Notes under the pieces: generated by a model | Told to the model about the DNA's origin: nothing | What the model saw: only the letters and a program-made list of their open reading frames with translations | The model's database searches: none | Shown here: positions 23,332-42,479 of the stretch, in pieces | Numbering within the stretch: position 1 is the stretch's first letter | Layout: the number at the start of each line of letters is the position of its first letter | Assembly: GCF_000517085.1 (NCBI RefSeq) | Contig: NZ_KI912107.1 | Location: 5,267,980-5,331,979, forward strand | Source of the DNA: Saccharicrinis fermentans DSM 9555 = JCM 21142 | GTDB taxonomy: Bacteria; Bacteroidota; Bacteroidia; Bacteroidales; Marinilabiliaceae | DNA length: 64,000 bases | Direction: 5' to 3' | Translations under genes and position numbers: made by a program

Positions 23332-23456
23332 TATAGCCATATATTTTGCAACATCTATTTTTACGGGGTAGGTAATAGAGATATGTTTAAGTAAACAGGT
23401 TTTAGATGTTAATGTTAAAGCAGAAGCGGAGATTGATAAATAATAAACATAAAGTT

Positions 23457-24197: not shown

Positions 24198-25726
24198 AGA
24201 ATTTACATCCATTTAGTAGGTATGGTTTAGCATTAATTATGGAAACATATTGTATTTCTGACGGTAACGCTATCAGTAAAAAACACATCTCTGAAACGAT
24301 AGAACTATCCAGATCTAAATTCCGATTAAAACCGGCGAAAACCATTGAAGGAAATAATTCAGTTTTGTACGATTTCTGTGCCGATGAAAAAGGAAACCCT
24401 AAAAAAGGAGTTTTTCTTTCTCCAAACGTTATCTCTTCAGATAAACTAGCAAAAAATATTTTTAAAGCTTCGTCTGAATTATTAAATGAACTAAACAAAG
24501 ATAAAGCTCCAATAAAGAAAGAAGCAAAAATGGCAACTACACCTATCGCAGGAGAATATCTGTCATTTTCAACAAATGGAGGAATTGGAAGAGGAAAACC
24601 TAAAATTGATATAGAAGAACTAGGCTATAATATATTAACAACATTAACCCATTGCAAGCCCTGTTTGCAATATAGGATTGATAAAAAAGGGATGCCTGAG
24701 TTGTATAACTGTTGCATTATTCCTGATTTGTCTTTAAAAGATACAATTCAGTTTATCAAACTTTTTAAGAAACTACAGATTTCACAAGCAAGTGCAAATC
24801 TTATGATTGGTAATGTATTAAAAAATGAATCAGGGAAGGGAGAAAAGCTTAAAGTCACGTATGAAGCCAAACGCCCATTAATATTTAAAGGCAATTTCCC
24901 AAATCCCCCACGAAGCAGTGCTCTCGGGAGTATCGCATTGCTGGGAGCGATAGGTGAATTTGCTAAACAAGCTGAAGTCTCGGATTTAGCACAAAGCGTA
25001 TTAGATAGTTTAAAGGGAGCTACTATTTACATGATTAAATATGGAGATGCACAAACCTTTACCTACAACCATCATGTAATTGATTTAGCAAAAGGAGGAA
25101 ATCTCAGAAAAATGGTTGATGCTGTTTACTATTCAAAACTGTACAATCAAGGTAGACGAACGGCAACCAATACTGAATATCAAAAATTCGACCTATTCAG
25201 TAGTCGTTTTTTGCAATTGTTTAATGCACCAGCCTTTCAAGATTTTCTGGCCTTTAGGGCAGAATACTCACACGAATTAGAATTATTATTTAAAACATAT
25301 TTCATCAAGATGGAAAATATTAAACCGGAAATTGTCACTTCTGTCAGATTTTTGGGCAAGTGGCTAAACAATGTTGCATATCATGCAGCAAAGAGAGAAA
25401 TCAAAGAAGGTTCTCCGAATTATCATGAGAAGATTCGAGAACAGAAAGCAAAAGTGCTTATCGAATTAGAAAGTGCTGCGTTCGCCGCCAAATCAGGTGA
25501 TGCACTAGTAGCGCAAGTTGTAACTAGAGCAGGCAGATTATCTGGTATGGATGCTCCTAGCGAATCTGATGTTTTTATGGAAGCAACTATGAATGGAGAG
25601 TTAAAATTATCGCAAGCACAAAACCTAATTATTGCCTTTTCAAGACTAAAAAGCAACAAGGCTTCAGAAAATGAAAGTGTAGCGCAAAATGAGAATGAGG
25701 GAAAAGAAGAATTAGACATAGTATAA
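24194..25726 (+). CDS. cas8: Large subunit of a type I effector complex (Cas8-like)
   Basis: 510 residues, no motif I can name with certainty. Position between cas5 and cas7, size, and absence of any other large-subunit gene make it the Cas8 of this Cascade. The C-terminal third (about 385-490) is rich in helices (FLGKWLNNVAYHAAKRE, KAKVLIELESAAFAAKSGD), as expected for a Cas8 C-terminal domain that substitutes for the small subunit Cas11. A low-complexity acidic tail (SVAQNENEGKEELDIV) follows. The layout resembles the Csp2 gene of PGING-type systems described from Porphyromonas. Start ATG overlaps the cas5 stop. Confidence 0.6.
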   Translation: MKNLHPFSRYGLALIMETYCISDGNAISKKHISETIELSRSKFRLKPAKTIEGNNSVLYDFCADEKGNPKKGVFLSPNVISSDKLAKNIFKASSELLNELNKDKAPIKKEAKMATTPIAGEYLSFSTNGGIGRGKPKIDIEELGYNILTTLTHCKPCLQYRIDKKGMPELYNCCIIPDLSLKDTIQFIKLFKKLQISQASANLMIGNVLKNESGKGEKLKVTYEAKRPLIFKGNFPNPPRSSALGSIALLGAIGEFAKQAEVSDLAQSVLDSLKGATIYMIKYGDAQTFTYNHHVIDLAKGGNLRKMVDAVYYSKLYNQGRRTATNTEYQKFDLFSSRFLQLFNAPAFQDFLAFRAEYSHELELLFKTYFIKMENIKPEIVTSVRFLGKWLNNVAYHAAKREIKEGSPNYHEKIREQKAKVLIELESAAFAAKSGDALVAQVVTRAGRLSGMDAPSESDVFMEATMNGELKLSQAQNLIIAFSRLKSNKASENESVAQNENEGKEELDIV

Positions 25727-25746: not shown

Positions 25747-26670
25747 ATGATAATCAAAGGAATTTTAGTGTCAGTTTTAGCACCATTTGAAAACCATATA
25801 GCAAATGGAGGAGAAAAATTATTAGGTAATGCATCATCTATCAAACGTCGTCCTGATGGGAAAGTATATGTTTCGGGGCAAATGCAACGTCATGTATTAT
25901 TTTCTGCAATTAAGCGATTAAATGAGGCTGACGAAAATAAGGGAACGACTTTCGTATCCAATGGTGATGGAATTACCAACCAAATCGAAAATGATTTGCG
26001 TGCCGATATGGGAGGTTTTATGCACCCATCAAAAGGCGATTATTCAGGAAGGAGAACTGCACCTTTATCAGTTACCCCTGCTGTTGCAATGGATAAAAGT
26101 GAGGTGGGTCGTGATTTATTGGTGCGAGTTAAAATGGATCAATCTGATGATTCAAAAGACCAGGCATTGGCAACAAAAGAATTCAGCGAGTACGATTTAA
26201 TGCATATGAATTTCTTTTTAGATGTTAGTGGTTTAAGCATCTCAAAAGCTTTTACTTACGAGAACAGTTTTAACATAGCGACAAACTATTTCAAACACGC
26301 CAACGATGATGAACGAATGCGCAGGGTAAAACTATATCTTCAAGGAACCAGATATATGAACGACTATGCAAGTCAAGCGCGAAATGCAGTTAGTGGGGAG
26401 CCTCAAAAAGTATTAATTGTTTTTGATCCTTTATTAGGAAGGAAAGCGAGTCGATATTTTACAGCATCAGAACTGGAACAAAAAAATATACTTGCTGAAT
26501 TGGACGCAAAAAATGCTATGTATTTTTTAGGTGACGACCAGTCGGAGTATAGTGTACACCAAGCATATTCTGAAGCTTTGGAGTTTTTGAATCAAGAGAA
26601 CAACATCTTGTTTGATCCGTCAGGTAATGCTAAAGTTCAAACATTTTCCAAGGCTTTTGGTAATGAATAA
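25747..26670 (+). CDS. cas7: Cascade backbone subunit Cas7 (DevR/Cst2-like)
   Basis: 307 residues. MIIKGILVSVLAPFENHIANGG starts the RRM-like fold, IKRRPDGKVYVSGQMQRHVLFSAI matches the Cas7/DevR region after the first strand, and ADMGGFMHPSKG is the thumb-like segment (D-x-x-G-F-M). SRRTAPLSVTPAVA-type sequence follows. Several copies line up along the crRNA in Cascade. The following cas3 start codon lies 8 bases inside this gene, so the two are translationally coupled. Confidence 0.8.
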   Translation: MIIKGILVSVLAPFENHIANGGEKLLGNASSIKRRPDGKVYVSGQMQRHVLFSAIKRLNEADENKGTTFVSNGDGITNQIENDLRADMGGFMHPSKGDYSGRRTAPLSVTPAVAMDKSEVGRDLLVRVKMDQSDDSKDQALATKEFSEYDLMHMNFFLDVSGLSISKAFTYENSFNIATNYFKHANDDERMRRVKLYLQGTRYMNDYASQARNAVSGEPQKVLIVFDPLLGRKASRYFTASELEQKNILAELDAKNAMYFLGDDQSEYSVHQAYSEALEFLNQENNILFDPSGNAKVQTFSKAFGNE

Positions 26671-28948
26671 CAAAGGACAAAAAATACTAGCAAAGCCATC
26701 AGGCATTTCGTTAGAAGAACATACTTCGAATGTAATGTCTGAGGCTCACGCTATACTTAAAACAAAGCCATTTGTAGTTCAAAAGTATCTTGATTTCGCA
26801 GGTGCTTCTCTTGAGAAACGGTTGGAAATAGCAGTACGTTTTCATGATGAAGGGAAGAAGCACCCTAAATGGCAGGATGCCTGCCAAAAAGATTATTTTG
26901 ATTTTAAACAATGGCAAAAGTATAATGATGGTACTTTTCAAGATTATGAAAAGGCCGTTAATAAAAATGCCGGAGCTAATATTCGAAAAGCAGGAGTACG
27001 GCATGAATGGAACTCGGTTAAACGACTCGAAGACCAATTCAAAATAAAAAAAGAACAAGAGGAGGTTCTCTCAATTATTGAAGCAGCTATTGTTTCTCAT
27101 CATTCCAAATTAAGCCATCAATTTCAAGAACGATGGCAAAGAGAAGGAATGGATGTTTTTTGGAAGAAATTTGATAGGCTGAGTAATAATGTTAGCGAAA
27201 AGGAGGACTTTGTTTATCTTCTTAAAAAGTATTACAATTATTCCGCTCTACGGGTACTTTTGCAAGTTGCAGACAGACGTGCAAGTGCAATTGAAGGAAG
27301 CAATATTCCTTGTCCATTTAGTGAGTTTTCGTATGAATTTCCGTGGGAGGAAAAACGGGGAGTACAATCATTAGTCGAAAAACATTGGCAAGATGATTTC
27401 CTTTTGGTTCGAGCTCCTACGGGTGCAGGAAAAACCGATGCTTCATTATTGTGGGCATCACTACAAATCAAAAACAATAGAGCAGATCGTCTGGTTATTG
27501 CAATGCCAACTCGTTTTACTTCAAATGCACTGGCCATTAATGTAACCGAAACTTTATCTGAAACTGGTCTTTACCATTCAAGTGCTTGGTTTAATCGTTA
27601 TGACAAAAAGGTAAGAGAGAACTCGATTGAAAAACTGGAAGCTATTAAACAACATCAGTTTGCTCGTCACTTGAATACCTCAACTACTGTTTGTACAATC
27701 GATCATTTACTTACAGCACTAACATTTAGTAGAGAGGATCATCATCATATTGCATTTAATTTGGCCAATTCCTGTTTGGTCATTGACGAAGCGGATTTTT
27801 ACGATGATTTTACACAAGCCAACATCCTTGTATTATTAGAAGTGTTGAAGGAATGGAAAGTGCCTGTATTGTTAATGAGTGCATCCTTGCCAGAATCGGT
27901 ATTGTACGACTATAAAAAAAATGGATTAAATGTTACAGACATCAAGGAGGATACTTCTGACTCTTCAAGAGTGCGGTTTGCAATTGAATCAATAGAAGAT
28001 TACGAAACTCCTGATGATATTGGTTATTTGCTTGATAAATGTATAGAAAAAGGCACAGCGATTATTTATGCGAATACTGTTGATAAAGCAATGGAATTTT
28101 ACAATTATTTCGAAAAAAGAAATGTTATTCCAATTGTATATCATAGCCGTTTTACGGAACCCGACAAACAAAAAAAAGAAGAGCTTTTAATTGAGTGTTT
28201 GGGAAAAGAAGCATGGCAAAACGGAAGAGCGAAGGGGATTGCAATTATGACACAAATTGGAGAAATGAGTATCAATATTAGTGCAGGCCTCATGATCTCA
28301 GATTTATGTCCGATAGATCGACTAGCTCAAAGAGCAGGAAGGCTTTGTCGTTTTGATAAAAATAAAATTGGGAGTCTGCACGTGATAGTTCCTCAGAAGA
28401 ATGGTTTTCTTTATCCTGCTCCCTATGGGGAATTTGACAGGCGAGAAAAAAGATGGATTCCTTTTGATGCATTATCTGCAACCCTAAAAATGATTGAGCT
28501 AAAAGATTATAGTCCAGATGAATTGGTGGAACTGCTTAATGAAGTGTACAAAAATGAGCAAGCGTTTTCATCTAAAGCTATAGCAAATGCCAAGCTTTTA
28601 AAAGAACACATTTTCGCCAATTGGTTAATCAATCCAATGCAAAAAATCGAAGAAGATGATAACACTACTAACTTTTGGAAAAGTAGAAACATTACTTCTC
28701 AAAGTAGTATTTGTGTTTGTAAACCAGAAAATTCATACTTTAAAAGCTATTCAGATTTTCAATCGTGGAAACTGATAAATGCAATTGAAGTTCCAATGTA
28801 CCTTATTGAAAAATATAGAAAAGCAAAAATTTTAGATCTTAAGCCTATTCAGATATACGATGAAAAGAGTAGTATTTGGGTAATCAGAGAGGGATTTTAT
28901 GATTTTGAAAAAGGTGTATTTTTCCCTGATGATGATCACTTTCTATAG
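26663..28948 (+). CDS. cas3: CRISPR nuclease-helicase Cas3
   Basis: The frame is open from 26612, but ATG at 26663 (MNNKGQKILAKPSG) is the likely start, overlapping the cas7 end by 8 bases; it gives 761 residues. N-terminal HD nuclease: LEEHTSNV, AVRFHDEGKKHPKWQ (the HD pair) and VSHHSKLSH. SF2 helicase: motif I APTGAGKTDASL, motif II IDEADFYDD, motif III MSASLP, and motif VI QRAGRLCRF. It is recruited to the R-loop to nick and unwind target DNA. Single-chain HD-helicase order is normal for types I-B and I-C. Confidence 0.93.
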   Translation: MNNKGQKILAKPSGISLEEHTSNVMSEAHAILKTKPFVVQKYLDFAGASLEKRLEIAVRFHDEGKKHPKWQDACQKDYFDFKQWQKYNDGTFQDYEKAVNKNAGANIRKAGVRHEWNSVKRLEDQFKIKKEQEEVLSIIEAAIVSHHSKLSHQFQERWQREGMDVFWKKFDRLSNNVSEKEDFVYLLKKYYNYSALRVLLQVADRRASAIEGSNIPCPFSEFSYEFPWEEKRGVQSLVEKHWQDDFLLVRAPTGAGKTDASLLWASLQIKNNRADRLVIAMPTRFTSNALAINVTETLSETGLYHSSAWFNRYDKKVRENSIEKLEAIKQHQFARHLNTSTTVCTIDHLLTALTFSREDHHHIAFNLANSCLVIDEADFYDDFTQANILVLLEVLKEWKVPVLLMSASLPESVLYDYKKNGLNVTDIKEDTSDSSRVRFAIESIEDYETPDDIGYLLDKCIEKGTAIIYANTVDKAMEFYNYFEKRNVIPIVYHSRFTEPDKQKKEELLIECLGKEAWQNGRAKGIAIMTQIGEMSINISAGLMISDLCPIDRLAQRAGRLCRFDKNKIGSLHVIVPQKNGFLYPAPYGEFDRREKRWIPFDALSATLKMIELKDYSPDELVELLNEVYKNEQAFSSKAIANAKLLKEHIFANWLINPMQKIEEDDNTTNFWKSRNITSQSSICVCKPENSYFKSYSDFQSWKLINAIEVPMYLIEKYRKAKILDLKPIQIYDEKSSIWVIREGFYDFEKGVFFPDDDHFL

Positions 28949-29647: not shown

Positions 29648-30160
29648 ATGGACATCACTGGAACTCATTTTAATTATTACATGGTTTGTCATCGGAAATT
29701 GTGGCTGTTTGCAAATAATATTCAAATGGAACATTCGTCGGATCTTGTTTTTGAAGGCAAATTGATTCATGAAACCAGTTATCAACAACGAAGCGCTACA
29801 TACGAAGAAGTTGCGATAGATGGTATTAAGGTGGATTATTTTGATACGAAAAATAAGGTAATACATGAGATTAAAAAGTCTAGTAAACTATTGGATTCTC
29901 ATGCCTGGCAGGTGAAATACTATATCTATGTTATGGAATTAAACGGAATGGAAGGTGTAACAGGCGTACTTGAATATCCGAAAGAACGAAAGACAGAAGA
30001 GGTGTTTTTAAGCATGCCCGATAGGGAGCGAATAAAGGAATTGTTGGTGGAGATTGACAAAGTTATACATTCAGATAAATGTCCGGGGGTGATCCATAAA
30101 CCCAAATGTAAAAAATGTTCCTACTATGATTTTTGTTATAGTGCTGAAAGTGAAGGATAA
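29648..30160 (+). CDS. cas4: CRISPR adaptation exonuclease Cas4
   Basis: 170 residues, PD-(D/E)XK fold with an iron-sulfur cluster. The four Cys ligands are Cys14 (VCHRKLW) and three near the C-terminus in KPKCKKCSYYDFC. The nuclease core shows KVDYFDTKNKVIHEIKKSS (D...E-x-K). Cas4 trims prespacers and helps select the PAM and orientation with Cas1-Cas2. Followed after 11 bases by cas1. Confidence 0.92.
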   Translation: MDITGTHFNYYMVCHRKLWLFANNIQMEHSSDLVFEGKLIHETSYQQRSATYEEVAIDGIKVDYFDTKNKVIHEIKKSSKLLDSHAWQVKYYIYVMELNGMEGVTGVLEYPKERKTEEVFLSMPDRERIKELLVEIDKVIHSDKCPGVIHKPKCKKCSYYDFCYSAESEG

Positions 30161-30171
30161 AATTTAAACGC

Positions 30172-31176
30172 ATGAAAAAAACCTACTATCTATTCAACCC
30201 GGGTCGTTTATCCAGAAAGGACAATACCCTAAAATTTACACCGGTTGATGAAGAAGGCAACGAATTAAAACCGAGATATCTGCCTGTTGAACATGTTGAT
30301 CAATTGTATGTCTTGGGTTCTTTAGATGCCAATTCGGCACTTTATAATTTTCTGGGGAAGAATGATATTGCTGTACATTTTTACGATTACTATGAAAATT
30401 ATACTGGATCATTTGCTCCTAAATGTAAGCTTTTGTCAGGCAAAATGTTAATCGCTCAAACGCAGAGCTATTTAAAAAAATCAAAGCGTTTAGAGATTGC
30501 CCAATCTTTTATTGAAGGAGCTTCGTTTAATATGCTAAAAAATCTGAAGTATTACGATAATAGAGGCAAAGACTTAATGCCGGTCATTGATAGCATTGAA
30601 CTTCTTCGAAAAAAGCTTCATTCAACCATGGATGTTAATGAGTTGATGGGGATCGAGGGGAATATTCGTAAAAACTATTATGATGCGTTCAATTTAATTA
30701 TTAATGATCATGAAATGGGAATCCGAACAAAACAGCCCCCTTTAAATATTGTAAACAGTCTGCTTTCCTTTGGTAATATGATGTGCTATTCAGAATGTTT
30801 ACGTGCCATTCAGAAAACGCAATTGGAGCCTACTATTAGTTTTTTACATGAACCTGGGGAACGACGGTTTAGCTTGGCCCTTGATTTGGCTGAGGTGTTT
30901 AAGCCCTTTTTAGTGGATCGGGTTATTTTTAAAGTATTAAACAAAAAAGAGATACAAGTGCATGATTTTGAGGAGAAATTAAATCGTATTGTGCTGAAGG
31001 AGAAGGGAAAGAAAAAATTTATTCAGGCATTTGAAAAACGTTTGGAAGAAACCATCAAACACAGGAGTTTGAAAAGAAATGTAAGTTACAAGCACTTAAT
31101 AAAATTAGAGTGTTATAAGCTGCAAAAACACCTTTTAGGAATGGATCTGTATAAACCTTTTAAAATTTATTGGTGA
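30172..31176 (+). CDS. cas1: CRISPR integrase Cas1
   Basis: 334 residues. The N-terminal beta-domain is followed by the helical catalytic domain, with the metal ligands Glu in LMGIEGNIRKNYYDAF, His in FLHEPGERRFSLALDLAE and the later acidic residue in that block (D of LALDLAE). Length and sequence style match the type I-B Cas1. Its stop TGA overlaps the cas2 start (TGATG), so the two are co-translated. Confidence 0.96.
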   Translation: MKKTYYLFNPGRLSRKDNTLKFTPVDEEGNELKPRYLPVEHVDQLYVLGSLDANSALYNFLGKNDIAVHFYDYYENYTGSFAPKCKLLSGKMLIAQTQSYLKKSKRLEIAQSFIEGASFNMLKNLKYYDNRGKDLMPVIDSIELLRKKLHSTMDVNELMGIEGNIRKNYYDAFNLIINDHEMGIRTKQPPLNIVNSLLSFGNMMCYSECLRAIQKTQLEPTISFLHEPGERRFSLALDLAEVFKPFLVDRVIFKVLNKKEIQVHDFEEKLNRIVLKEKGKKKFIQAFEKRLEETIKHRSLKRNVSYKHLIKLECYKLQKHLLGMDLYKPFKIYW

Positions 31177-31442
31177 TGTATGTGATATTAATGTACGATA
31201 TGGGTGAAAAACGAGTGGGGAAAATGTTAAAATTGTGCCGGCAATATTTAAATTGGATTCAAAACTCGGTTTTTGAAGGTGAAATAACAGAGGTGAAATT
31301 AAAAGAGCTCATTTCAAAAGCTGAGATGATCATGAATGAAGAAGAGCAGGATAGTCTAATTTTATTTAAAAGCCGAGAGCAAAAATGGCTTGAAAAAGAG
31401 GTGGTTGGATATGAAAAAAATGACCTCGATCAATTTTTATAG
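31176..31442 (+). CDS. cas2: CRISPR adaptation protein Cas2
   Basis: 88 residues from ATG at 31176. A TTG frame opening at 31170 is less likely. MYVILMYDMGEKRVGKMLK is the Cas2 N-terminus, with the conserved Asp after the first strand (YD). WIQNSVFEGEIT is the second typical segment. It forms the central dimer of the Cas1-Cas2 integrase. The last codons (31441-31453) are half of a 13-bp inverted repeat whose other half is in the leader. Last gene of the operon. Confidence 0.93.
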   Translation: MYVILMYDMGEKRVGKMLKLCRQYLNWIQNSVFEGEITEVKLKELISKAEMIMNEEEQDSLILFKSREQKWLEKEVVGYEKNDLDQFL

Positions 31443-31665
31443 TTGTCGATGTGTATTTTGGGGCCTCCAGTGACTATTTTTTTGGGGGGTTCATTCTGAT
31501 CATTGCGTTCTTTGACATATTGAAATAACTAATGTTTTGACAATGTTGTCGAAACCCAGTATATTTTATACTTTTGCACATCGACAACTTAAATAGCTCG
31601 TTTTAGTGCTATTTGTGAATCTTATTGTATTGAATATCAGATATTTTTTTTGAGTCGTCGGTCGA
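31443..31665 (+). promoter_or_regulatory. CRISPR leader
   Basis: 223 AT-rich bases between cas2 and the first repeat. It contains an arm of a 13-bp inverted repeat (31577-31589, partner 31441-31453) and a Bacteroidota-type promoter. Orientation is supported by the degenerate repeat at the far end of the array and by the GAAAC 3' end of the repeat. Confidence 0.8.
31546..31576 (+). promoter_or_regulatory. Promoter inside the CRISPR leader
   Basis: TTG at 31546-31548, 20-base gap, then TACTTTTG at 31569-31576, an exact TAnnTTTG -7 box. Transcription would start near 31583 and read into the array. Confidence 0.6.
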
Positions 31666-34600
31666 CCCTTAATCGTACCATACTGGAATTGAAACTCTTC
31701 CAGAGCACCAGTGTAACGGTTGCCCATCATCCCCCCTTAATCGTACCATACTGGAATTGAAACAAGGGAAGTAGCGGAAGTTATAAGCGTAGAAGAATCC
31801 CTTAATCGTACCATACTGGAATTGAAACAATAAAAAGCTTAGTTTTTTCTTCTAATTCGTAAGTCCCCTTAATCGTACCATACTGGAATTGAAACTAGCT
31901 TGTTAAGGCTATAGCTATATCCGAAACCTCGCCCTTAATCGTACCATACTGGAATTGAAACGATATCATCGGCACTGTTGTAGCAAGGAATTTCGCCCCT
32001 TAATCGTACCATACTGGAATTGAAACTTTGCATCCGCGCCTCTGATAAAACCTTGATCAATTCCCTTAATCGTACCATACTGGAATTGAAACTGGATCCT
32101 ATAGACGTTGAGGCTCTTGTAAAACAACCCTTAATCGTACCATACTGGAATTGAAACTTCGGAAAATATAGAGATAAAACTGTAGATTTTTTAATCCCTT
32201 AATCGTACCATACTGGAATTGAAACACTCTAGTCCAACCGTTATTTTTATCTATACACATGCCCTTAATCGTACCATACTGGAATTGAAACATTGGAATG
32301 TTGTCTTTAATAGTAAACACAACACGATCCCTTAATCGTACCATACTGGAATTGAAACGGTGTTAAAGAATCCTGCCCCCTATTCCTTATCCAAGCCCTT
32401 AATCGTACCATACTGGAATTGAAACGATGGCGATGATCGAATAGCGTTTGGTCAACCATACCCTTAATCGTACCATACTGGAATTGAAACTCGAAAATTT
32501 GTTTAAATAAACCATCGAAGTAGTTGTAACCCTTAATCGTACCATACTGGAATTGAAACTATCTTTTTACTATTTTTTACGTTTGTAACTGAATGCCCTT
32601 AATCGTACCATACTGGAATTGAAACTACCTAGGAGGGTAGTTTGTCACATCATCATCATATGGCCCTTAATCGTACCATACTGGAATTGAAACTGCGTTG
32701 GCAGTACTTAATTCCTTCCTCTTGTGTTTTCCCTTAATCGTACCATACTGGAATTGAAACGAAAATAAAAATGCCTTATTTGTGACGTTAACATTTACCC
32801 TTAATCGTACCATACTGGAATTGAAACTGATGTTAGAGCATCGTAATCTTATTATAGAACAAACCCCTTAATCGTACCATACTGGAATTGAAACGTAAGC
32901 GCTAAGAAATCTCGATTAACACCAGACAGTCCCTTAATCGTACCATACTGGAATTGAAACTATCTATTATCTTTAGTTAGAGAAGTTAATTTGTCAACCC
33001 TTAATCGTACCATACTGGAATTGAAACCGCTCATGAGCGTGCCGTCGGTGCGCTCATGAGCGACCCTTAATCGTACCATACTGGAATTGAAACAGCTTTA
33101 GTTTTCCCTCGGCCTGCCCCTTCTCGATCACCCTTAATCGTACCATACTGGAATTGAAACAATATTGTGTGAACATTTGATCTCTTTCCTCATCGTTCCC
33201 TTAATCGTACCATACTGGAATTGAAACATTGTTTTTTCGTTCACATATTCGCCAACCCTTATAACCCTTAATCGTACCATACTGGAATTGAAACTTTAGT
33301 CTCAAGTTCTTTACGTTCTGCATCTGATTTACCCCTTAATCGTACCATACTGGAATTGAAACAACCAATATGATGACTATTGGACATTAACAATTTAATC
33401 CCTTAATCGTACCATACTGGAATTGAAACAAGGCCAGCTTGTAGGCTTCCCTGACGAGGTTATTACCCTTAATCGTACCATACTGGAATTGAAACGGAAC
33501 AACGGCTTCACACATAATTGGTACAAGTTGTCCCCTTAATCGTACCATACTGGAATTGAAACACAGGAATGTTGTCTTTAATAGTAAACACAACACGCCC
33601 TTAATCGTACCATACTGGAATTGAAACTTGAGTGTAGGTTTATGAGAACAGTAATGGGGGCAACCCTTAATCGTACCATACTGGAATTGAAACGATGGTG
33701 TTGGAATATAGCTAGTATCTTTACCATCTCCCTTAATCGTACCATACTGGAATTGAAACATGAACTACATTATCGATAGTCTTAAATTGCTCTGACCCTT
33801 AATCGTACCATACTGGAATTGAAACTTGGGCTATTGATTCGCTTTTATTCGTTCCAGTCATCCCTTAATCGTACCATACTGGAATTGAAACTTCGTGGTA
33901 TCCCCGCTATACTTATCGACTACGAACACCCTTAATCGTACCATACTGGAATTGAAACACGTTCATGTCCGATCTCCATGCTTTACTTAAGTTGAAACCC
34001 TTAATCGTACCATACTGGAATTGAAACTCGACTATTACGGCCTGTCCAGCTTCGACCTGTTCCCTTAATCGTACCATACTGGAATTGAAACTCAATAGCT
34101 AAATAATACAACATCCCAGAATCATAACACCCTTAATCGTACCATACTGGAATTGAAACTACGAGGTGGCATTGATGAAGTATGTAAATAGTTTCCCTTA
34201 ATCGTACCATACTGGAATTGAAACTCAGGAAGAACAAGGTAATAAGAGAGATGTAAGTGTGCCCTTAATCGTACCATACTGGAATTGAAACTAGTGAGTT
34301 ATCTAAGGAAGAAAAATTCATGCATGCCCTTAATCGTACCATACTGGAATTGAAACCTATAAACGTATAAACACAGCTACCTTGCCTGTAAGCCCTTAAT
34401 CGTACCATACTGGAATTGAAACTTCTTATATTGTTTTTTAATCCGCTTTCCCAATTAGCCCCTTAATCGTACCATACTGGAATTGAAACGCGCTATATCA
34501 ATGTCTATTTCGAATAATTTTACAGTCCCTTAATCGTACCATACTGGAATTGAAACAATTATGTTATAGCTGGAAGGCGACACCCCCCGTCCCCTTAATC

Positions 34601-35736
34601 GTACCATACTGGAATTGAAACTTGCGATTGATTACGAACATGGACTACTTCTTTAACTCCCTTAATCGTACCATACTGGAATTGAAACCAAACAGCCCGT
34701 TACTCAAGGTGGGATGGTTTTAACCCTTAATCGTACCATACTGGAATTGAAACATTTATTGATTTAGATCTTAGATTTCAGGAGATCGAATCCCTTAATC
34801 GTACCATACTGGAATTGAAACGATTTAACAGCAAATATTACAGCATCGGCTACTACATCCCTTAATCGTACCATACTGGAATTGAAACAGAGTACGATGC
34901 TCTAGTGCTAGAACAAAAAGCTTTCCCTTAATCGTACCATACTGGAATTGAAACTTGCCAGCAGGATGTATTTTTATTAAGGATAGATACTCCCTTAATC
35001 GTACCATACTGGAATTGAAACTTCTTATATTGTTTTTTAATCCGCTTTCCCAATTAGCCCCTTAATCGTACCATACTGGAATTGAAACGCGCTATATCAA
35101 TGTCTATTTCGAATAATTTTACAGTCCCTTAATCGTACCATACTGGAATTGAAACAATTATGTTATAGCTGGAAGGCGACACCCCCCGTCCCCTTAATCG
35201 TACCATACTGGAATTGAAACTTGCGATTGATTACGAACATGGACTACTTCTTTAACTCCCTTAATCGTACCATACTGGAATTGAAACCAAACAGCCCGTT
35301 ACTCAAGGTGGGATGGTTTTAACCCTTAATCGTACCATACTGGAATTGAAACATTTATTGATTTAGATCTTAGATTTCAGGAGATCGAATCCCTTAATCG
35401 TACCATACTGGAATTGAAACGATTTAACAGCAAATATTACAGCATCGGCTACTACATCCCTTAATCGTACCATACTGGAATTGAAACAGAGTACGATGCT
35501 CTAGTGCTAGAACAAAAAGCTTTCCCTTAATCGTACCATACTGGAATTGAAACTTGCCAGCAGGATGTATTTTTATTAAGGATAGATACTCCCTTAATCG
35601 TACCATACTGGAATTGAAACAGTTATGGTCCTTATTTTAGTGTTTTTCGTAAAAACCCTTAATCGTACCATACTGGAATTGAAACTTTAATCCATTTTTT
35701 ATGTCATTGTTTACAAACCTTACCCTTAATCGTACC
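31666..35736 (+). CRISPR. CRISPR array, leader-proximal part (61 full repeats)
   Basis: Repeat is 30 bp, starting CCCTTAATCG and ending GGAATTGAAAC. Spacers are 34-39 bp. By hand count there are 61 complete repeats and 61 spacers, then the first 14 bases of the 62nd repeat (35723-35736), where an IS66 copy is inserted. Spacers 42-50 (34423-35021) are repeated exactly as spacers 51-59 (35022-35620). Spacers 10 (32292) and 29 (33563) are near-identical. Spacer 21 (33028-33063) holds two copies of a 12-bp palindrome. All repeats here look identical, fitting a leader-proximal, recently extended array. The Cas6 handle would be ATTGAAAC. Confidence 0.98.
34423..35620 (+). repeat. Tandem duplication of nine CRISPR spacers
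   Basis: 34423-35021 and 35022-35620 are identical by eye, a 599-bp unit with nine spacers and nine repeats. Unequal recombination between repeats is the likely cause. Confidence 0.95.
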
Positions 35737-35800
35737 GTAAGTCTTCGGTCTTTCACATATTGCGACCTTCATACTAGCGCTGTTTCTTTGATGGCAAAAA

Positions 35801-36151
35801 ATGAGAATGACATTAATAACATTTAAGCGTTTGTATAAGGATTACCAGGAATCAGATTTGAACATAAAAGATTTCTGTACCAACCAAGATTTGGCTCCTT
35901 CCACTTTTTATTACTGGCGAAACAAATTGGAAGAGGCACTAGCACATGAGCCAGATAGCTTTGTTCCACTAGAATTTGACAGTAATCCGTTAGCGACGAA
36001 CAATCAATCGAGTCCATCTATCATCAAGAGTAAGCCTACTTTAAATAATGATGCTCCCATTGAATTCGTATTTCCCAATGGCACCAAGATGCTACTAAGA
36101 GATAATATAAACACGCAAGTATTAAAAACAATTGTTCACTTATTTGATTAA
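35801..36151 (+). CDS. tnpA: IS66 accessory protein TnpA (C-terminus altered)
   Basis: 116 residues. Helix-turn-helix-like N-terminus (ITFKRLYKDYQESDLNIKDFCTNQDLAPSTFYYWRNKLEEAL), the standard small first protein of IS66 elements. Compared with copy 2, one extra A in an A run near 36124-36128 changes the C-terminus to LKTIVHLFD instead of LKQLFTYLIKS. So the last residues are not native, and function may be lost or reduced. Confidence 0.8.
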   Translation: MRMTLITFKRLYKDYQESDLNIKDFCTNQDLAPSTFYYWRNKLEEALAHEPDSFVPLEFDSNPLATNNQSSPSIIKSKPTLNNDAPIEFVFPNGTKMLLRDNINTQVLKTIVHLFD

Positions 36152-36156
36152 GTCTG

Positions 36157-36492
36157 ATGTTTCATTTACACGATAAACTTAAATACTTTCTATATCCGGC
36201 ACCAGTGGATATGCGTAAAAGCTTTTACACACTCAGCGGCATTGTAAGCTCCTTGATGAAGCGTAATGTTCAGGACGGTGAAGTTTTTATATTTGTTAAC
36301 CGTAGGCTGACCACCATGAAAATACTTCATCTAGAACACGGCGGGTTGGTAATTTACCATAAGAAGCTCGATAGTGGTGTTTTCAAACTTCCTGCATTTG
36401 ATGAAAGCCTCACATCTCACATTATAAGTTGGCACGATTTAATGTTGATTGTACAGAATGTGAAGCCAAAAAAAGGACTTTTAAAGAGGTGA
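36157..36492 (+). CDS. tnpB: IS66 accessory protein TnpB
   Basis: 111 residues of the IS66 Orf2-like family: YFLYPAPVDMRKSFYTLSGIV and DGEVFIFVNRRLTTMKILHLEHGGLVIYHKKL are its signatures. The product is needed for IS66 transposition together with TnpA and TnpC; its biochemical role is not well defined. It differs from the second copy's TnpB by only a few residues near the C-terminus. Confidence 0.9.
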   Translation: MFHLHDKLKYFLYPAPVDMRKSFYTLSGIVSSLMKRNVQDGEVFIFVNRRLTTMKILHLEHGGLVIYHKKLDSGVFKLPAFDESLTSHIISWHDLMLIVQNVKPKKGLLKR

Positions 36493-36586
36493 CAAAAAGA
36501 AGCAATTTTTTAGGATTTTTAGATCGATAAAATTGGCTATAAGCCTTGATTTTACTATCTTTAAGCTCGTAATCAAGCAGTGATAA

Positions 36587-38267
36587 ATGAGCGATTTTTC
36601 AAGCAATAAAGATGTGTTAATACAGGAGCTTCTCCAGGAACGTGACGAGATGTTTCAGGAGCTTTCCCGCTTGCGAAAAAATGACAATAGGGTTCTGGAC
36701 ACTTTGGAAGCTAAAAACAAAAAATTAGAGGCTATAGTCGCTAAAAAGAGCAGCAAATTAAAAAGCTGATCGACCAGCTTGCTTGGTTTCGCCATAAGTT
36801 TTTTGGCAATTCTAGTGAAAAGCATATTGCCGAAGATCCCGATCAACGAAAGATCGATTGGGACGGACTGGAGGTCGTTGCAGAAGAGAAAGCTATCATT
36901 GAAAACGCAGAAAAAGAGCTTATCGAATATGAGCGCCGCAAGCCTGTAAAAAACAAGCAGAGGCCAGTTCGTCAACCACTTCCTGACCACCTTAGACGAG
37001 AGGTAGAAGTTATTGAACCGGAAGGTAAACAAGATAACTGGGTGCGTATTGGCGAAGAAGTAACAGAAATACTCGAACACAAGCCCGGAGAGGGTATATG
37101 TACGTCGTATAGAACGTCCTAAATATGCAGTAAAGCAAGAATCAGTATCACCGGATATTGCTACAGATCAAAACACCGAAGAAGCATCAGCTATCCGTAT
37201 TGGTTCAATGCCATTATTGCCTTTGCCACGCAGCAATGCAGGGCCTTCTTTATTGAGCGAGCTGATGATGAATAAATATTATTTCCACCAGCCCTTTAAT
37301 CGCCAAATGGCCATGTTCAAAATGATTGGTATAAAATTACCTGCATCCACCATTAATGGTTGGTTTCAAGGAAGCTGTGATTTACTAAGAGCTCTTTATG
37401 CACGTTTAAAAGAAATCGTTCTAAAATCTGATTATATTCAGGTTGACGAAAGTACCATTCCTGTTATTAGCAACGAAAAGCACAAAGCACAAAAGGCTTA
37501 TCTGTGGATGGTTCGATCAGTAATGAATAACTTGGTTTTCTTTCACTACGACAAAGGCTCCCGAGCACAAAAAGTGATACTTCCTTTATTAAAGGATTTT
37601 CAGGGAGCTCTTCAAACCGATGGATATCAGGCATATTCAGTCTATGAGCAAAAGAAAGGTGTTTTGCTTCTGGGTTGTTGGGCTCATGCGCGCAGGAAAT
37701 TCTCCGAAAGTCTAAAAGAAGACAAAACGGGGGCTGAATACGCATTGGCACAAATTGCTAAAAATCTATCAAGTTGAGCAAATGGCCACCGATCAGAACA
37801 TGAATTACAAGCAAAGAGCTGAACTACGAAAGCGCTTGGCTTATCCAATCATGCGTGCTTTTGAAAAATGGATCGAAGGCTATTACCCCAAAGCGCTACA
37901 AGGAGGAAAGATGAGTAAGGCGCTGGCTTATACATACAATCTTTTCTTACGTCTGTCTCGCTATCATCTTGATGGCCGATATCTGCCTGACAACAACGGA
38001 GCTGAAAATGCAATTAGGCCGGTAGCTGTTGGAAGAAAAGGCTATCTCTTTTGTGGCAACCATGATGCCGCAGAAAATGCAGCAATTATGTACTCACTAC
38101 TGGGATGCTGCAAAGCCAGTGATGTAAATCCTCGCGAATGGCTTACGGATGTATTTTCTAAGATTGCGTTATACAACAGCAATTATGATTTAGACTTGGC
38201 TGATCTTTTGCCGCACAATTGGAAAAAGTCTAATAGTTGTCAGAATATTCCAAAAAACACCCACTAA
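36587..38267 (+). pseudogene. tnpC: IS66 transposase TnpC, three frameshifts
   Basis: DDE transposase of IS66 in three pieces of different frames: 36587-36769, 37208-37777 and 37755-38267. Against copy 2, one A is missing in a run near 36745, one G is extra near 37090, and one A is extra near 37764. The DDE segments are readable (YIQVDESTIPV, LQTDGYQAY, NNGAENAIRPVAVG). With three breaks it cannot make a full protein unless some are sequencing errors; all lie in or beside homopolymers. Confidence 0.88.
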
Positions 38268-38314
38268 TTTCGATTAATTCCAAAAGATTCCAGTAAAACT
38301 TAGAGATTTCCAAC

Positions 38315-38349
38315 GCTCCAATCGACATCCGGATTGGAGCATTTTTTTA
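38315..38349 (+). terminator. Terminator inside IS66 copy 1
   Basis: GCTCCAATC/GATTGGAGC hairpin followed by A and a run of seven T. It should stop transcription moving from the leader side into the distal array. Confidence 0.8.
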
Positions 38350-38380
38350 CTTTGCAATATGTAGCAGACCGCATATTTAC

Positions 38381-39487
38381 ATCGTACCATACTGGAATTG
38401 AAACTTATTCCGACTTCGTAAAACAGACTTTTCCAAAATCCCTTAATCGTACCATACTGGAATTGAAACTTATTCCGACTTCGTAAAACAGACTTTTCCA
38501 AAATCCCTTAATCGTACCATACTGGAATTGAAACGAACAATCTAAATCAGAAGTTGAAAGAGAGAAGGCACCCTTAATCGTACCATACTGGAATTGAAAC
38601 TCGTGTAAATGTTACAACGCATTTCTTTTTTGTACCACCCTTAATCGTACCATACTGGAATTGAAACGAAGTAAAATAATCTTTCTGCCAAGCACGATTA
38701 CGCATCCCTTAATCGTACCATACTGGAATTGAAACGATTAAACTCTATGTTTAACGTAATACAATTTCCGTCTCCCTTAATCGTACCATACTGGAATTGA
38801 AACTGAAAAGGAGGAGCTGTTTAAACAGCTCAAAGAAGAGGCCCTTAATCGTACCATACTGGAATTGAAACAAATTTGAAAATGTTGTTTCGTTGTCCAT
38901 GATTATCCCTTAATCGTACCATACTGGAATTGAAACGAGGATTTTGCAACCTTGAAAGATGGTGTATATGAGCCCTTAATCGTACCATACTGGAATTGAA
39001 ACGAATTATAATTTTGGGAAATGCCTTAATACTAAAATGTCCCTTAATCGTACCATACTGGAATTGAAACAGATTAGAAAATGCAGGATTAAACCCAGCG
39101 TTAGCCATCCCTTAATCGTACCATACTGGAATTGAAACCACCCAGACGCTGTTTTTATGGTTTCGAACGAGATTCCCTTAATCGTACCATACTGGAATTG
39201 AAACATCTTCCTGTTGTAATTAGTAAGCTAGAGTTAAGTACCCTTAATCGTACCATACTGGAATTGAAACAGGCATAGGTTTTCCGTCCCATCCTTTCTT
39301 AGCTGTAACCCTTAATCGTACCATACTGGAATTGAAACTTGTTGACGGAAAAATAAGCTTAGTTGAGGGGGCGCCCTTAATCGTACCATACTGGAATTGA
39401 AACATATGTCGTGGGGGAAAATGTTTCTGGAATTATTAGTCCCTTAATCGTACCATACTGGAATTGAAACATTGAAACAAATGTAGA
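38381..39487 (+). CRISPR. CRISPR array, middle part between two IS66 copies
   Basis: Begins with the last 24 bases of the IS-split 62nd repeat, then 16 full repeats and 16 full spacers, and ends with the first 17 bases of a spacer cut by the second IS66. The first two spacers (38405 and 38470) are identical, so there was a one-unit duplication. Spacer 68 contains a perfect 18-bp palindrome (38814-38831). No promoter of its own is evident. Confidence 0.97.
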
Positions 39488-39551
39488 GTAAGTCTTCGGT
39501 CTTTCACATATTGCGACCTTCATACTAGAGCTGTTTCTTTGATGGCAAAAA

Positions 39552-39927
39552 ATGAGAATGACATTAACAACATTTAAGCGTTTGTATAAGGATTACCAGG
39601 AATCAGGTTTGAACATAAAAGATTTCTGTACCAACCAAGATTTGGCTCCTTCCACTTTTTACTATTGGCGAAATAAATTGGAAGAGGCATTAGCACATGA
39701 GCCAGATAGCTTTGTTCCACTAGAATTTGACAGTAATACCGTTAACGACGAATAACCAATCGAGTCCATCTATCATCAAGAGTAAGCCTACTTTAAACAA
39801 TGATGCTCCCATTGAATCCGTATTTCCCAATGGCACCAAGATGCTACTAAGGGATAATATAAACACGCAAGTATTAAAACAATTGTTCACTTATTTGATT
39901 AAGTCTGATGTTTCATTTACACGATAA
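39552..39927 (+). pseudogene. tnpA: IS66 TnpA, frameshifted
   Basis: Two overlapping pieces (39552-39755 and 39727-39927) encode the N- and C-terminal halves. An extra base near 39736-39740 (AATACCG for AATCCG in copy 1) breaks the frame. The C-terminal end, VLKQLFTYLIKS, is here in its native form, unlike in copy 1. Confidence 0.85.
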
Positions 39928-40243
39928 ACTTAAATACTTTCTATATCCGGCACCAGTGGATATGCGTAAAAGCTTTTACACACTCAGCGGCATTGTAAGC
40001 TCCTTAATGAAGCGTAATGTTCAGGACGGTGAAGTTTTTATATTTGTCAACCGTAGGCTGACCACCATGAAAATACTTCATCTAGAACACGGCGGGTTGG
40101 TAATTTACCATAAGAAGCTCGACAGTGGTGTTTTCAAACTTCCTGCATTTGATGAAAGCCTCACATCTCACATTATAAGTTGGCACGATTTAATGTTGAT
40201 TGTAAAGAATGTGAAGCCTAAAAAAAGGCTCTTAAAGAGGTGA
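39908..40243 (+). CDS. tnpB: IS66 accessory protein TnpB
   Basis: 111 residues, intact, same family signature as in copy 1 (FLYPAPVDMRKSFY). It overlaps the end of tnpA by about 20 bases, normal for IS66 and likely translationally coupled. Confidence 0.9.
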   Translation: MFHLHDKLKYFLYPAPVDMRKSFYTLSGIVSSLMKRNVQDGEVFIFVNRRLTTMKILHLEHGGLVIYHKKLDSGVFKLPAFDESLTSHIISWHDLMLIVKNVKPKKRLLKR

Positions 40244-40337
40244 CAAAAAGAAGCATTTTTTTAGGATTTTTAGATTGATAAAATTGGCTATAAGCCTTGA
40301 TTTTACTATCTTTAAGCTCGTAATCAAGCAGTGATAA

Positions 40338-42030
40338 ATGAGCGATTTTTCAAGCAATAAAGATGTGTTAATACAGGAGCTTCTCCAGGAACGTGACGAG
40401 ATGTTTCAGGAGCTTTCCCGCTTGCGAAAAAATGACAATAGGGTTCTGGACACTTTGGAAGCTAAAAACAAAAAATTAGAGGCTATAGTCGCTAAAAAAG
40501 AGCAGCAAATTAAAAAGCTGATCGACCAGCTCGCTTGGTTTCGCCATAAGTTTTTTGGCAATTCTAGTGAAAAGCATATTGCCGAAGATCCCGATCAACG
40601 AAAGATCGATTGGGACGGACTGGAGGTCGTTGCAGAAGAGAAAGCTATCATTGAAAACGCAGAAAAAGAGCTTATCGAATATGAGCGCCGCAAGCCTGTA
40701 AAAAACAAGCAGAGGCCAGTTCGTCAACCACTTCCTGACCACCTTAGACGAGAGGTAGAAGTTATTGAACCGGAAGGTAAACAAGATAACTGGGTGCGTA
40801 TTGGCGAAGAAGTAACAGAAATACTCGAACACAAGCCCGGAGAGGTATATGTACGTCGTATAGAACGTCCTAAATATGCAGTAAAGCAAGAATCAGTATC
40901 ACCGGATATTGCTACAGATCAAAACACCGAAGAAGCATCAGCTATCCGTATTGGTTCAATGCCATTATTGCCTTTGCCACGCAGCAATGCAGGGCCTTCT
41001 TTATTGAGCGAGCTGATGATGAATAAATATTATTTCCACCAGCCTTTTAATCGCCAAATGGCCATGTTCAAAATGATTGGTATAAAATTACCTGCATCCA
41101 CCATTAATGGTTGGTTTCAAGGAAGCTGTGATTTACTAAGAGCTCTTTATGCACGTTTAAAAGAAATCGTTCTAAAATCTGATTATATTCAGGTTGACGA
41201 AAGTACCATTCCTGTTATTAGCAACGAAAAGCACAAAGCACAAAAGGCTTATCTGTGGATGGTTCGATCAGTAATGAATAACTTGGTTTTCTTTCACTAC
41301 GACAAAGGCTCCCGAGCACAAAAAGTGATACTTCCTTTATTAAAGGATTTTCAGGGAGCTCTTCAAACCGATGGATATCAGGCATATTCAATCTATGAGC
41401 AAAAGAAAGGTGTTTTGCTTCTGGGTTGTTGGGCTCATGCGCGCAGGAAATTCTCCGAAAGTCTAAAAGAAGACAAAACGGGGGCTGAATACGCATTGGC
41501 ACAAATTGCTAAAATCTATCAAGTTGAGCAAATGGCCACCGATCAGAACATGAATTACAAGCAAAGAGCTGAACTACGAAAGCGCTTGGCTTATCCAATC
41601 ATGCGTGCTTTTGAAAAATGGATCGAAGGCTATTACCCCAAAGCGCTACAAGGAGGAAAGATGAGTAAGGCGCTGGCTTATACATACAATCTTTTCTTAC
41701 GTCTGTCTCGCTATCATCTTGATGGCCGATATCTGCCTGACAACAACGGAGCTGAAAATGCAATTAGGCCGGTAGCTGTTGGAAGAAAAGGCTATCTGTT
41801 TTTGTGGCAACCATGATGCCGCAGAAAATGCAGCAATTATGTACTCACTACTGGGATGCTGCAAAGCCAGTGATGTAAATCCTCGCGAATGGCTTACAGA
41901 TGTATTTTCTAAGATTGCGTTATACAACAGCAATTATGATTTAGACTTGGCTGATCTTTTGCCGCACAATTGGAAAAAGTCTAATAGTTGTACAGAATAT
42001 TCCAAAAAAACACCCACTAATTTCGATTAA
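40338..42030 (+). pseudogene. tnpC: IS66 transposase TnpC, one late frameshift
   Basis: Open for 492 codons (40338-41816): N-terminal leucine-zipper-like coiled coil (about 1-75), zinc-ribbon/helical middle, and the DDE core with DESTIPV, TDGYQAY and GAENAIRPVAVGRKGYLF. An extra T near 41797-41802 then shifts the frame. The lost C-terminus (GNHDAAENAAIMYSLLG... to the end) is readable in another frame to 42030. About 65 C-terminal residues are missing, including the region after the catalytic Glu. It might keep part of its activity, but probably not. Confidence 0.85.
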
Positions 42031-42067
42031 TTCCAAAAGATTCCAGTAAAACTTAGAGATTTCCAAC

Positions 42068-42101
42068 GCTCCAATCGACATCCGGATTGGAGCATTTTTT
42101 T
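42068..42101 (+). terminator. Terminator inside IS66 copy 2
   Basis: Same GCTCCAATC/GATTGGAGC hairpin and T run as in copy 1. Confidence 0.8.
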
Positions 42102-42133
42102 ACTTTGCAATATGTAGCAGACCGCATATTTAC

Positions 42134-42455
42134 AATGTAGATGCGAACCTTTTCGCTAACCCTTAATCGTACCATACTGGAATTGAAACAAAACAACTAC
42201 CAAATTGGCTTTAGAGAGGACTTCACCCTTAATCGTACCATACTGGAATTGAAACTAAAGATAGGAACAGAAAGAAGCTCTCTCGCTAATAAACCCTTAA
42301 TCGTACCATACTGGAATTGAAACGGGCTTCAGATAGCTTTTTTTCGCCGGCTTCTTTTTCCTTAATCGTACCATACTGGAATTGAAACTTGTAATGTCTC
42401 TTGTATTAAATCTGCGCTTATGTCCCCCTTAATCGTACCATGCTGGAATTGAAAT
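42134..42455 (+). CRISPR. CRISPR array, trailer end
   Basis: Remainder of the IS-split spacer (18 bases after the target duplicate), five repeats and four spacers. The last two repeats are degenerate: the one at 42359 has T for its first C, and the one at 42426 has a G in place of A (ATGCTGG) and ends GAAAT instead of GAAAC. This marks the old, leader-distal end. Confidence 0.95.
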
Positions 42456-42479
42456 TTATCGATGTTATATGGAATATAG

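Follow-up and report, generated by a model that had tools for sequence, protein, structure and literature searches.

How can a chromosome that carries an open CRISPR-Cas locus also keep two prophages that one of its own spacers matches perfectly? This question is raised by the array of Saccharicrinis fermentans DSM 9555 found within the window, i.e. the whole stretch of 64,000 nucleotides analysed here, where a leader and an open cas operon of type I-PGING (I-B-like) precede the array, which is interrupted by two IS66-family copies, denoted IS1 and IS2 (Table 1).

The array spans positions 31666-42455, as had been proposed in a previous reading of the letters alone (the sequence-only reading). 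Eighty-two unbroken repeats were found, every one on the + strand, and a genome-wide search for the repeat (≤3 mismatches) returned 82 matches with none outside this array (reversed control, 0). When both IS66 copies were excised together with one 8-bp duplicate each, and the flanks were joined at both sites, a single regular array of 5484 bp resulted, in which 83 repeats alternate with 82 spacers (34-39 bp each), the same count as claimed earlier. Among the 83 repeats 81 are exact, including the rebuilt no. 62, and the degenerate ones lie at the array end (one change in no. 82 and two in no. 83). The reading as a single array with two simple insertions was supported. The contents are more complex than described: nine repeat-spacer units form an exact 599-bp tandem duplication (34393-34991 = 34992-35590) and spacer 62 is identical to spacer 63, so that the 82 spacers reduce to 72 distinct ones (10 redundant). 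This redundancy had been missed by the sequence-only reading, as had the self-matching spacers behind the insertion.

Table 1. Features of the cas operon, leader, interrupted array and insertions (window coordinates).
Feature	Position	Strand	Remarks
cas6	22528..23331	+	TIGR01877, 90.4 bits, over cut-off
cas5 (Cas5p, type I-PGING)	23406..24197	+	TIGR03488, 233.9 bits, over cut-off
cas8 (Cas8c/Csp2, type I-PGING)	24194..25726	+	TIGR03487, 649.9 bits, over cut-off
cas7 (Csp1, type I-PGING)	25747..26670	+	TIGR03489, 539.9 bits, over cut-off
cas3 helicase-nuclease, 778 aa, open	26612..28948	+	TIGR01587, 303 bits (cut-off 102.45)
cas4	29648..30160	+	TIGR00372
cas1	30172..31176	+	TIGR03641, type I-B Cas1 model
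cas2	31170..31442	+	TIGR01573
Leader	31443..31665	+	cas2-repeat 1 interval; alignable with same-place leaders of two genus-mates
boxA-like GTTCTTTGACAT	31507..31518	+	Kept in three leaders; name tentative
Sigma-70-like promoter	31537..31565	+	Top score of region (11/12); consensus match only, scan overall at chance level
Array segment 1	31666..35736	+	Spacers 1-61 (52 distinct) with repeats 1-61; ends in the left portion of repeat 62
Tandem duplication of nine units	34393..35590	+	Two exact 599-bp copies
Target duplicate ATCGTACC, left of IS1	35729..35736
IS1, IS66 family, 2644 bp	35737..38380	+	Inside repeat 62, sense to array
Terminator-like hairpin and T run, IS1 end	38315..38348	+	Top score of terminator-like scan
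Target duplicate ATCGTACC, right of IS1	38381..38388
Array segment 2	38381..39487	+	From the right portion of repeat 62 to the left portion of spacer 78, with spacers 62-77 complete
Spacer 66	38668..38705	+	Nearly matches major capsid genes of microviruses
Spacer 68, self-matching	38804..38841	+	Perfect match (38/38) in two prophage regions
Target duplicate AATGTAGA, left of IS2	39480..39487
IS2, IS66 family, 2646 bp	39488..42133	+	Inside spacer 78, sense to array
Terminator-like hairpin in IS2	42068..42101	+	Same as that of IS1
Target duplicate AATGTAGA, right of IS2	42134..42141
Array segment 3	42134..42455	+	Right-hand remainder of spacer 78, then spacers 79-82 and repeats 79-83, of which the final two are degenerate
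Spacer 81, self-matching	42324..42358	+	32/35 at the two spacer-68 prophage regions

The ends of the inserted element are GTAAGTCTTCGGTC and GTAAATATGCGGTC, and its assignment to IS66 was borne out in the IS2 copy, the one tested, by TnpB (NF033819) and TnpC (NF033517) matches over cut-off and by PF03050. IS66 transposition yields 8-bp target duplicates, and the duplicates at both copies proved to be exact, as claimed; likewise one copy lies in a repeat (IS1, repeat 62) and the other in a spacer (IS2, spacer 78), the latter being restored to 35 bp. The claim that the insertions are recent was not upheld. Exact duplicates flank six of the nine full-length copies in the genome and do not prove recency by themselves, for which reason this argument was rejected; furthermore, IS1 and IS2 differ from each other (25 substitutions and 10 indels pairwise; 28 and 8 when all nine copies are aligned), and tnpC, open in five of the nine full-length copies, has a broken frame in both array copies, which may be due either to decay or to assembly error. 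Among the full-length copies the nearest to IS1 is C3:1439533 (16 substitutions) and the nearest to IS2 is C3:4317499 (10 substitutions). Since the nearest copies differ, a local duplication of the pair was rejected, and from these alignments IS1 and IS2 look like two separate arrivals. A search of plasmids for near matches to the element found none. Comparison with related genomes, as had been suggested, did not help to date the insertions: the repeat (≤2 mismatches) occurs in this genome alone among nine of the genus (own included), and the arrays of the genus-mates G002 and G007, which have a related repeat, have no spacer in common with it (best matches 10-15 bp).

Private changes among the nine copies amount to 8 substitutions and 3 indels in IS1 and 1 substitution and 5 indels in IS2, and the remaining seven full-length copies have 0, 0, 0, 0, 1, 1 and 3 private indels. 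So many private indels in the array copies, together with 100-N gaps elsewhere in the genome, would fit an assembly artefact in which the IS copies or the nine-unit duplication are misplaced. Such an artefact is exceedingly improbable, however, given that the exact 8-bp duplicate, the flanking repeat and the flanking spacers are particular to each junction, that the window has no N and that the repeats are so nearly uniform.

With Csp1, Csp2 and Cas5p all over curated cut-offs, the system is, by these model matches, a type I-PGING (I-B-like) CRISPR-Cas system; the cas set of array 30.1 in Porphyromonas gingivalis ATCC 33277 is the PGING set. The HD domain of Cas3 scored just under its cut-off (TIGR01596, 43.3 bits against 43.45, E 3.9e-11), and Cas3 is 53-62% identical over 752-784 aa to the proteins of the three Cas8-relative loci compared (L052-L054). 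The adaptation genes cas1, cas2 and cas4 adjoin the leader and the array, and this Cas1 is the only match in the genome (7/7 candidates scored). The boxA-like word in the leader agrees at 9 of 11 letters with the Legionella CRISPR boxA quoted in an excerpt of PMC7862264; a link to rRNA is unconfirmed, the 12-mer occurring twice in the genome and the 3 kb of the second site being without an Rfam match.

The perfect matches of spacer 68 are at C3:8017-8054 and C3:2418796-2418833, both on the same chromosome. The three differences of spacer 81 from its targets are all synonymous (frame read in L091), and with a mismatch at position 8 this spacer may be harmless alone. Both self-targets are immediately preceded by CA (5' flanks GCA and CCA), which is likely to be the PAM. 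In L091, one of the two regions, nine proteins were scanned, and genes close to the spacer-68 target match phrog_310 (transposase, MuA-like), phrog_296 (DNA transposition protein, MuB-like) and phrog_4 (repressor) in one cluster; the other region, L090, has eight blocks in common with it (88-99%). Both are Mu-like prophage regions, L090 being so judged from the common blocks. There are 100-N gaps in both prophage loci, so the assembly is imperfect there. For spacers 1-61 nothing better than E 0.47 was found in the own genome outside the array (22/22 candidates scored), and no source of spacer 21, a palindromic one, was found there. Two 25-bp own-genome matches of segment 2 (E 0.037) straddle repeat and spacer and were taken as chance.

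A scan for terminator-like sites over positions 31100-43000 gave 13 sites against 8.5 expected, the hairpins of IS1 and IS2 having the two top scores. The hairpin folds at -16.1 kcal/mol (z -4.27; 0/200 shuffles as good) and, by a strict pattern, is present in seven of the nine full-length IS copies, not in all. Strong and sense to the array, such a structure at the IS1 end suggests that the 21 leader-distal spacers would be cut off from the pre-crRNA. The Bacteroidetes-type promoter consensus is TAnnTTTG. On the + strand neither this word nor any promoter-like site was found from the IS1 hairpin to spacer 68 (38340-38804) or from the IS2 hairpin to spacer 81 (42093-42324). Given that the promoter scan was overall at chance level (41 sites against 37.6 expected), little weight can be put on the missing hits, and an outward promoter of a kind unknown to these scans could come with the IS.

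We propose that a single leader-fed type I-PGING (I-B-like) array received two IS66-family elements by independent transpositions, both in the part distal to the leader. Pre-crRNA started from the leader would then stop at the IS1 end and spacers 62-82 would give little or no crRNA, which would make the self-matching spacers harmless and allow an active leader-proximal array and the prophages to persist in the same cell. We give an even chance to the reading that polar silencing by IS66 in the split array lets self-targeting spacers be tolerated, in which case a mobile element may have turned off an attack of the cell on its own chromosome. IS1 could have been selected owing to the prophages, or it could have come first and the prophages been admitted afterwards. 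More tentatively, an IS that lands in the array with its own terminator might be a natural off-switch for all older spacers together, the perfectly self-targeting one among them, by which leader-proximal immunity and the two Mu-like prophages are kept with no loss of cas genes, spacer or PAM.

The reverse effect, in which cis signals of the IS keep or raise the transcription of distal spacers, might be considered by analogy with E. coli ATCC 8739, where CRISPR2 likewise has an IS within a long array and enhanced distal transcription was suggested (PMC2886076, in the portion available). Although both copies are sense to the array, we find it very hard to credit here: the terminator-like IS end predicts the opposite, no promoter-like site was found from there to spacer 68, and such transcription should be harmful given the perfect self-match.

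Polar silencing meets objections: far from the leader, transcription of a long array may be weak in any case, and the tolerance would also be accounted for by an anti-CRISPR or by low Cas expression. The insertions might be neutral, two copies having landed in an already little-used distal segment of an IS-rich genome (9 full-length copies among 65 IS matches), with the self-matches coincidental. Two of the 72 distinct spacers are self-matching and 20 distinct ones lie behind IS1; the probability that both would be distal by chance is p = 0.074, so that the link between IS and self-match is suggestive only, and the IS in the E. coli array was reported without such a consequence in the same portion of PMC2886076. 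Neutrality nevertheless seems rather unlikely to us, since with a perfect self-match, a likely PAM and open cas genes the survival of the cell still needs explaining. Anti-CRISPRs are carried by phages, and the self-targets lie in prophages. A prophage-borne anti-CRISPR, or low Cas expression, might thus block interference while the distal crRNAs are made, and the abstract of PMC10732046 names AcrIB2 as an anti-CRISPR against a type I-B system. This explanation is improbable in our judgement, as a terminator-like hairpin with no promoter hit behind it would lead one to expect little crRNA from the distal spacers.

Several known systems resemble parts of this locus. In Mycobacterium tuberculosis IS6110 splits a repeat so that one ancestral array appears as two, and the joining spacer is missed by the usual tools; unlike here, that element belongs to the IS3 family and its duplicates are of 3 bp, the locus includes csm genes, and the sections of PMC7820667 consulted mention no self-matching spacers. 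ISC1359 within a spacer of Sulfolobus solfataricus inactivates a memory whose target the cell must keep (PMC4390879, excerpts), but in that case the insertion arose under plasmid selection in the laboratory and the spacer was hit directly, whereas the present insertion is natural, lies upstream and would act on all spacers behind it. In Haloquadratum walsbyi HBSQ001 a spacer was likewise rebuilt by removing an element (a MITE) and then matched to its target, although cas genes are lacking and the target is in another strain (PMC3119063, in part). Array 30.1 of Porphyromonas gingivalis ATCC 33277, linked to type I-B, is also long (119 spacers), with several spacers resembling the own genome, but no IS split is described in the parts of PMC13055991 at hand. 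What is new here is the perfect self-match of spacer 68 behind IS1, together with spacer 81; in the open-licence PMC literature no report was found of an IS in an array silencing a self-targeting spacer. The escape routes listed in section 13 of the self-targeting review PMC6990116 are mutation of target or PAM, deletion of the target, changes in the array by mutation or deletion (as spacer loss), and cas genes that are lost or mutated. If the proposed silencing is true, an IS that silences an array tail in a polar manner would add another route, one in which neither the spacer nor the cas genes are given up, and silent spacers would be predictable from sequence; RNA data should then be required before spacers behind an IS are regarded as active immunity.

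Spacer-to-phage searches, suggested for dating the segments, led nowhere. Against 50,697 phage records spacers 1-61 matched only two records (E 4) and segment 3 only three (E 4), and segment 2 matched 145 records at E ≤ 10, with 16 of the best 20 of 145 at spacer 66; four Enterococcus phage matches of segment 2 within the same best 20 (E 0.3) were taken as chance. Scans of viral contigs for the patterns of spacers 10/29, 66, 68 and 81 gave 0 in each of five scans, and in 393 genomes of the order the core of spacer 10/29 was found in its own array only. An order-wide array search, in which two candidates were scored per genome, matched 21 of 149 genomes but yielded arrays with related repeats and is therefore uninformative on protospacers. 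Spacer 66 itself matched 113 of the 50,697 phage records at E ≤ 0.1, all of them capsid genes among the 30 matches listed, and of the five microvirus targets that were read CA adjoins three, CC the closest and CG one.

With the 30-bp repeat as query, a scan of the window found 82 intact copies, each on the + strand. When the flanks were joined at two IS66-family insertions (IS1, left; IS2, right; see table) and one 8-bp duplicate was dropped per insertion, a single array of 83 repeats and 82 spacers, 34-39 bp each, was regained (5484 bp in total), in agreement with the count made in the sequence-only reading. Its placement of one IS in a repeat and the other in a spacer also held: IS1 lies inside repeat 62, flanked on both sides by ATCGTACC, and IS2 inside spacer 78, flanked on both sides by AATGTAGA (numbering from the leader). 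Including the rebuilt one, 81 repeats are exact; the final two are degenerate, an expected feature of the old end of an array. At up to three mismatches, the repeat was absent elsewhere in the 5.98-Mb genome (82/82 matches in the array; reversed control, 0). Given an exact tandem duplication of nine units (599 bp) and the identity of spacers 62 and 63, 72 spacers are distinct.

Coordinates of features (window positions unless a handle is given; C3, own chromosome)
Feature	Position	Remark
REP-associated-type transposase gene	29018-29614	between cas3 and cas4; 59.8 bits (cut-off 80 bits)
Top promoter-like score of the region	31537-31565	within leader
CRISPR array	31666-42455	
Spacer 10	32292-32328	
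Spacer 21	33028-33063	GC-rich; two CGCTCATGAGCG palindromes
Spacer 29	33563-33597	
IS1	35737-38380	sense to array
Spacer 66	38668-38705	
Spacer 68	38804-38841	38/38 at C3:8017-8054 and C3:2418796-2418833
Spacer 78	39471-39487 + 42134-42159	IS2 target
IS2	39488-42133	sense to array
Spacer 81	42324-42358	32/35 in both regions matched by spacer 68
ISL3-type transposase pieces	42615-43686	directly behind array; two frames, both below family cut-off
Third IS66 piece	45087-45746	internal deletion, both ends kept
Prophage locus L090	C3:1-18000	two runs of exactly 100 N
Prophage locus L091	C3:2409000-2428900	seven runs of exactly 100 N
Repeat copies in G035, another genome of the order	L083:11222-11387	two near-identical copies, starts 136 bp apart

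The own genome was searched with each of the three array segments separated by the insertions, and the main new result of the analysis is that spacers 68 and 81 match it. For segment 1 (spacers 1-61), nothing outside the array was better than E 0.47 (22/22 candidates scored). Both target regions are Mu-like prophages: near the spacer 68 target, itself in a phrog_846 gene, L091 encodes proteins that match phrog_310 (transposase), phrog_296 (DNA transposition protein) and phrog_4 (repressor). This protein scan was made on L091, where 2/9 proteins had no match, and L090 was assigned by eight blocks common to both loci (88-99%). The order and copy number of the prophages in the assembly are doubtful because of the runs of N in both loci. 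None of the three mismatches of spacer 81 changes the protein encoded by the L091 target gene (KKEAGEKKLSEA for both), so this spacer was probably derived from a relative of these phages. Two further 25-bp matches of segment 2 (E 0.037) span repeat-spacer borders and were taken as chance.

The 5' flanks of the self-targets are GCA for spacer 68 and CCA for spacer 81, in both regions each. In a set of 50,697 phage records, spacer 66 had matches in 113 (E ≤ 0.1), and among the matches listed (30 of 113) all were major capsid genes. Five target records were fetched, all Microviridae, with flanks GCA (3/5), GCC (1/5) and GCG (1/5); the closest of the five has three mismatches (35/38) and the GCC flank. 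CA, shared by the self-targets and three of the five microvirus targets, is thus the likely PAM, a call resting on three spacers. A repeat ending in AC precedes every spacer, which would protect the array from its own interference. Spacer 66 is a memory of a capsid gene of a microvirus (single-stranded DNA phage), suggesting that this lineage is a host of microviruses.

Upstream of the array, the + strand carries cas6, cas5p, cas8 (Csp2), cas7 (Csp1), cas3, the REP-type transposase gene, cas4, cas1 and cas2, a set corresponding to NCBIfam type I-PGING, with Cas1 (one match in the whole genome) matching the type I-B model. The cas reading frames are open, and the Cas proteins found in three of the five Cas8-relative loci align over most of their length; the Cas3 HD domain score (43.3) is marginally below the cut-off (43.45). 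Two genus-mates (G002, G007) match the own cas4-cas1-cas2 at 64-73% and cas3 at only 25-27%, over parts, and the interference part may therefore have been exchanged near the transposase gene. The leader, lying between cas2 and repeat 1, aligns with its counterparts in two genus-mates, which occupy the same position, and CGTTCTTTGACAT is conserved; this tentatively boxA-like word has 9/11 letters in common with the Legionella CRISPR boxA, an antitermination site reported at CRISPR arrays (PMC7862264). The promoter-like scan as a whole was about at chance (41 sites versus 37.6 expected). Given the upstream cas genes, the leader and its promoter-like site, the array is most likely read with the + strand, both IS lying far from the leader.

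The 3' ends of IS1 and IS2 carry the two top-scoring terminator-like sites in 31100-43000 (13 sites versus 8.5 expected). The IS hairpin (-16.1 kcal/mol, z -4.27) beats 200/200 shuffles and is present, by a strict pattern, in 7/9 full-length copies. Between the IS1 hairpin and spacer 68, and between the IS2 hairpin and spacer 81, neither a sigma-70-like site nor a Bacteroidetes-type promoter word was found on the + strand. Sense insertions with such a hairpin and no promoter word downstream predict that pre-crRNA would stop within IS1, leaving spacers 62-82 (21; 20 distinct) silent.

Where the type I operon is open, a spacer that matches its own chromosome in full, next to a likely PAM, should do harm if its crRNA is made. 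Lying between the leader and spacer 68, IS1 could let the cell survive without losing cas, spacer or PAM, a bold but unproven explanation. Selection in lysogens may have favoured IS1, or the insertion may have come first and then let the phages in. Distal spacers may also be weakly transcribed without any IS effect, and the chance of 2/2 self-matches falling among the distal 20/72 distinct spacers (p = 0.074) cautions against over-reading the link to silencing.

Mobile elements inside CRISPR arrays are already known. IS6110 splits a repeat in M. tuberculosis (PMC7820667), CRISPR2 of E. coli ATCC 8739 holds an IS (PMC2886076), a MITE is located in a Haloquadratum spacer (PMC3119063), and such insertions are described as very rare in Sulfolobales in a review that cites spacer inactivation by ISC1359 under plasmid selection (PMC4390879); escape from self-targeting via target, array or cas changes has been reviewed (PMC6990116). 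In the accessible text of the open-licence literature searched, no report was found of a natural array in which an IS has a polar silencing effect on self-matching spacers.

The own genome holds at least nine full-length copies among at least 65 matches of this IS66 element (40/85 candidates scored), with exact target duplicates at 6/9. In a pairwise alignment, 25 substitutions and 10 indels separate IS1 from IS2 (nine-copy alignment: 28 and 8). Each also has its own nearest copy among the nine (at 16 substitutions for IS1 and 10 for IS2), so the two probably arrived separately. The tnpC gene is open in 5/9 full-length copies and broken in both IS1 and IS2. IS2 has one private substitution but five private indels, a pattern that fits sequence error in a repeat better than it fits age.

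From position 4 onwards, spacers 10 and 29 agree over 32 bases, and their differences lie at positions 2 and 3 (by hand reading of other-strand codons, one change synonymous and one Ile/Met-to-Val), as if one site in two related phages had been sampled twice; no source was found in the searches. The exact 12-mer of the spacer 21 palindrome had no further occurrence in the own genome. In the 18.6 kb fetched around the G035 repeat copies, tblastn with nine query proteins gave 0 matches. Spacer 78 starts with ATTGAAAC, the final 8 bases of the repeat, so that the repeat end is doubled there.
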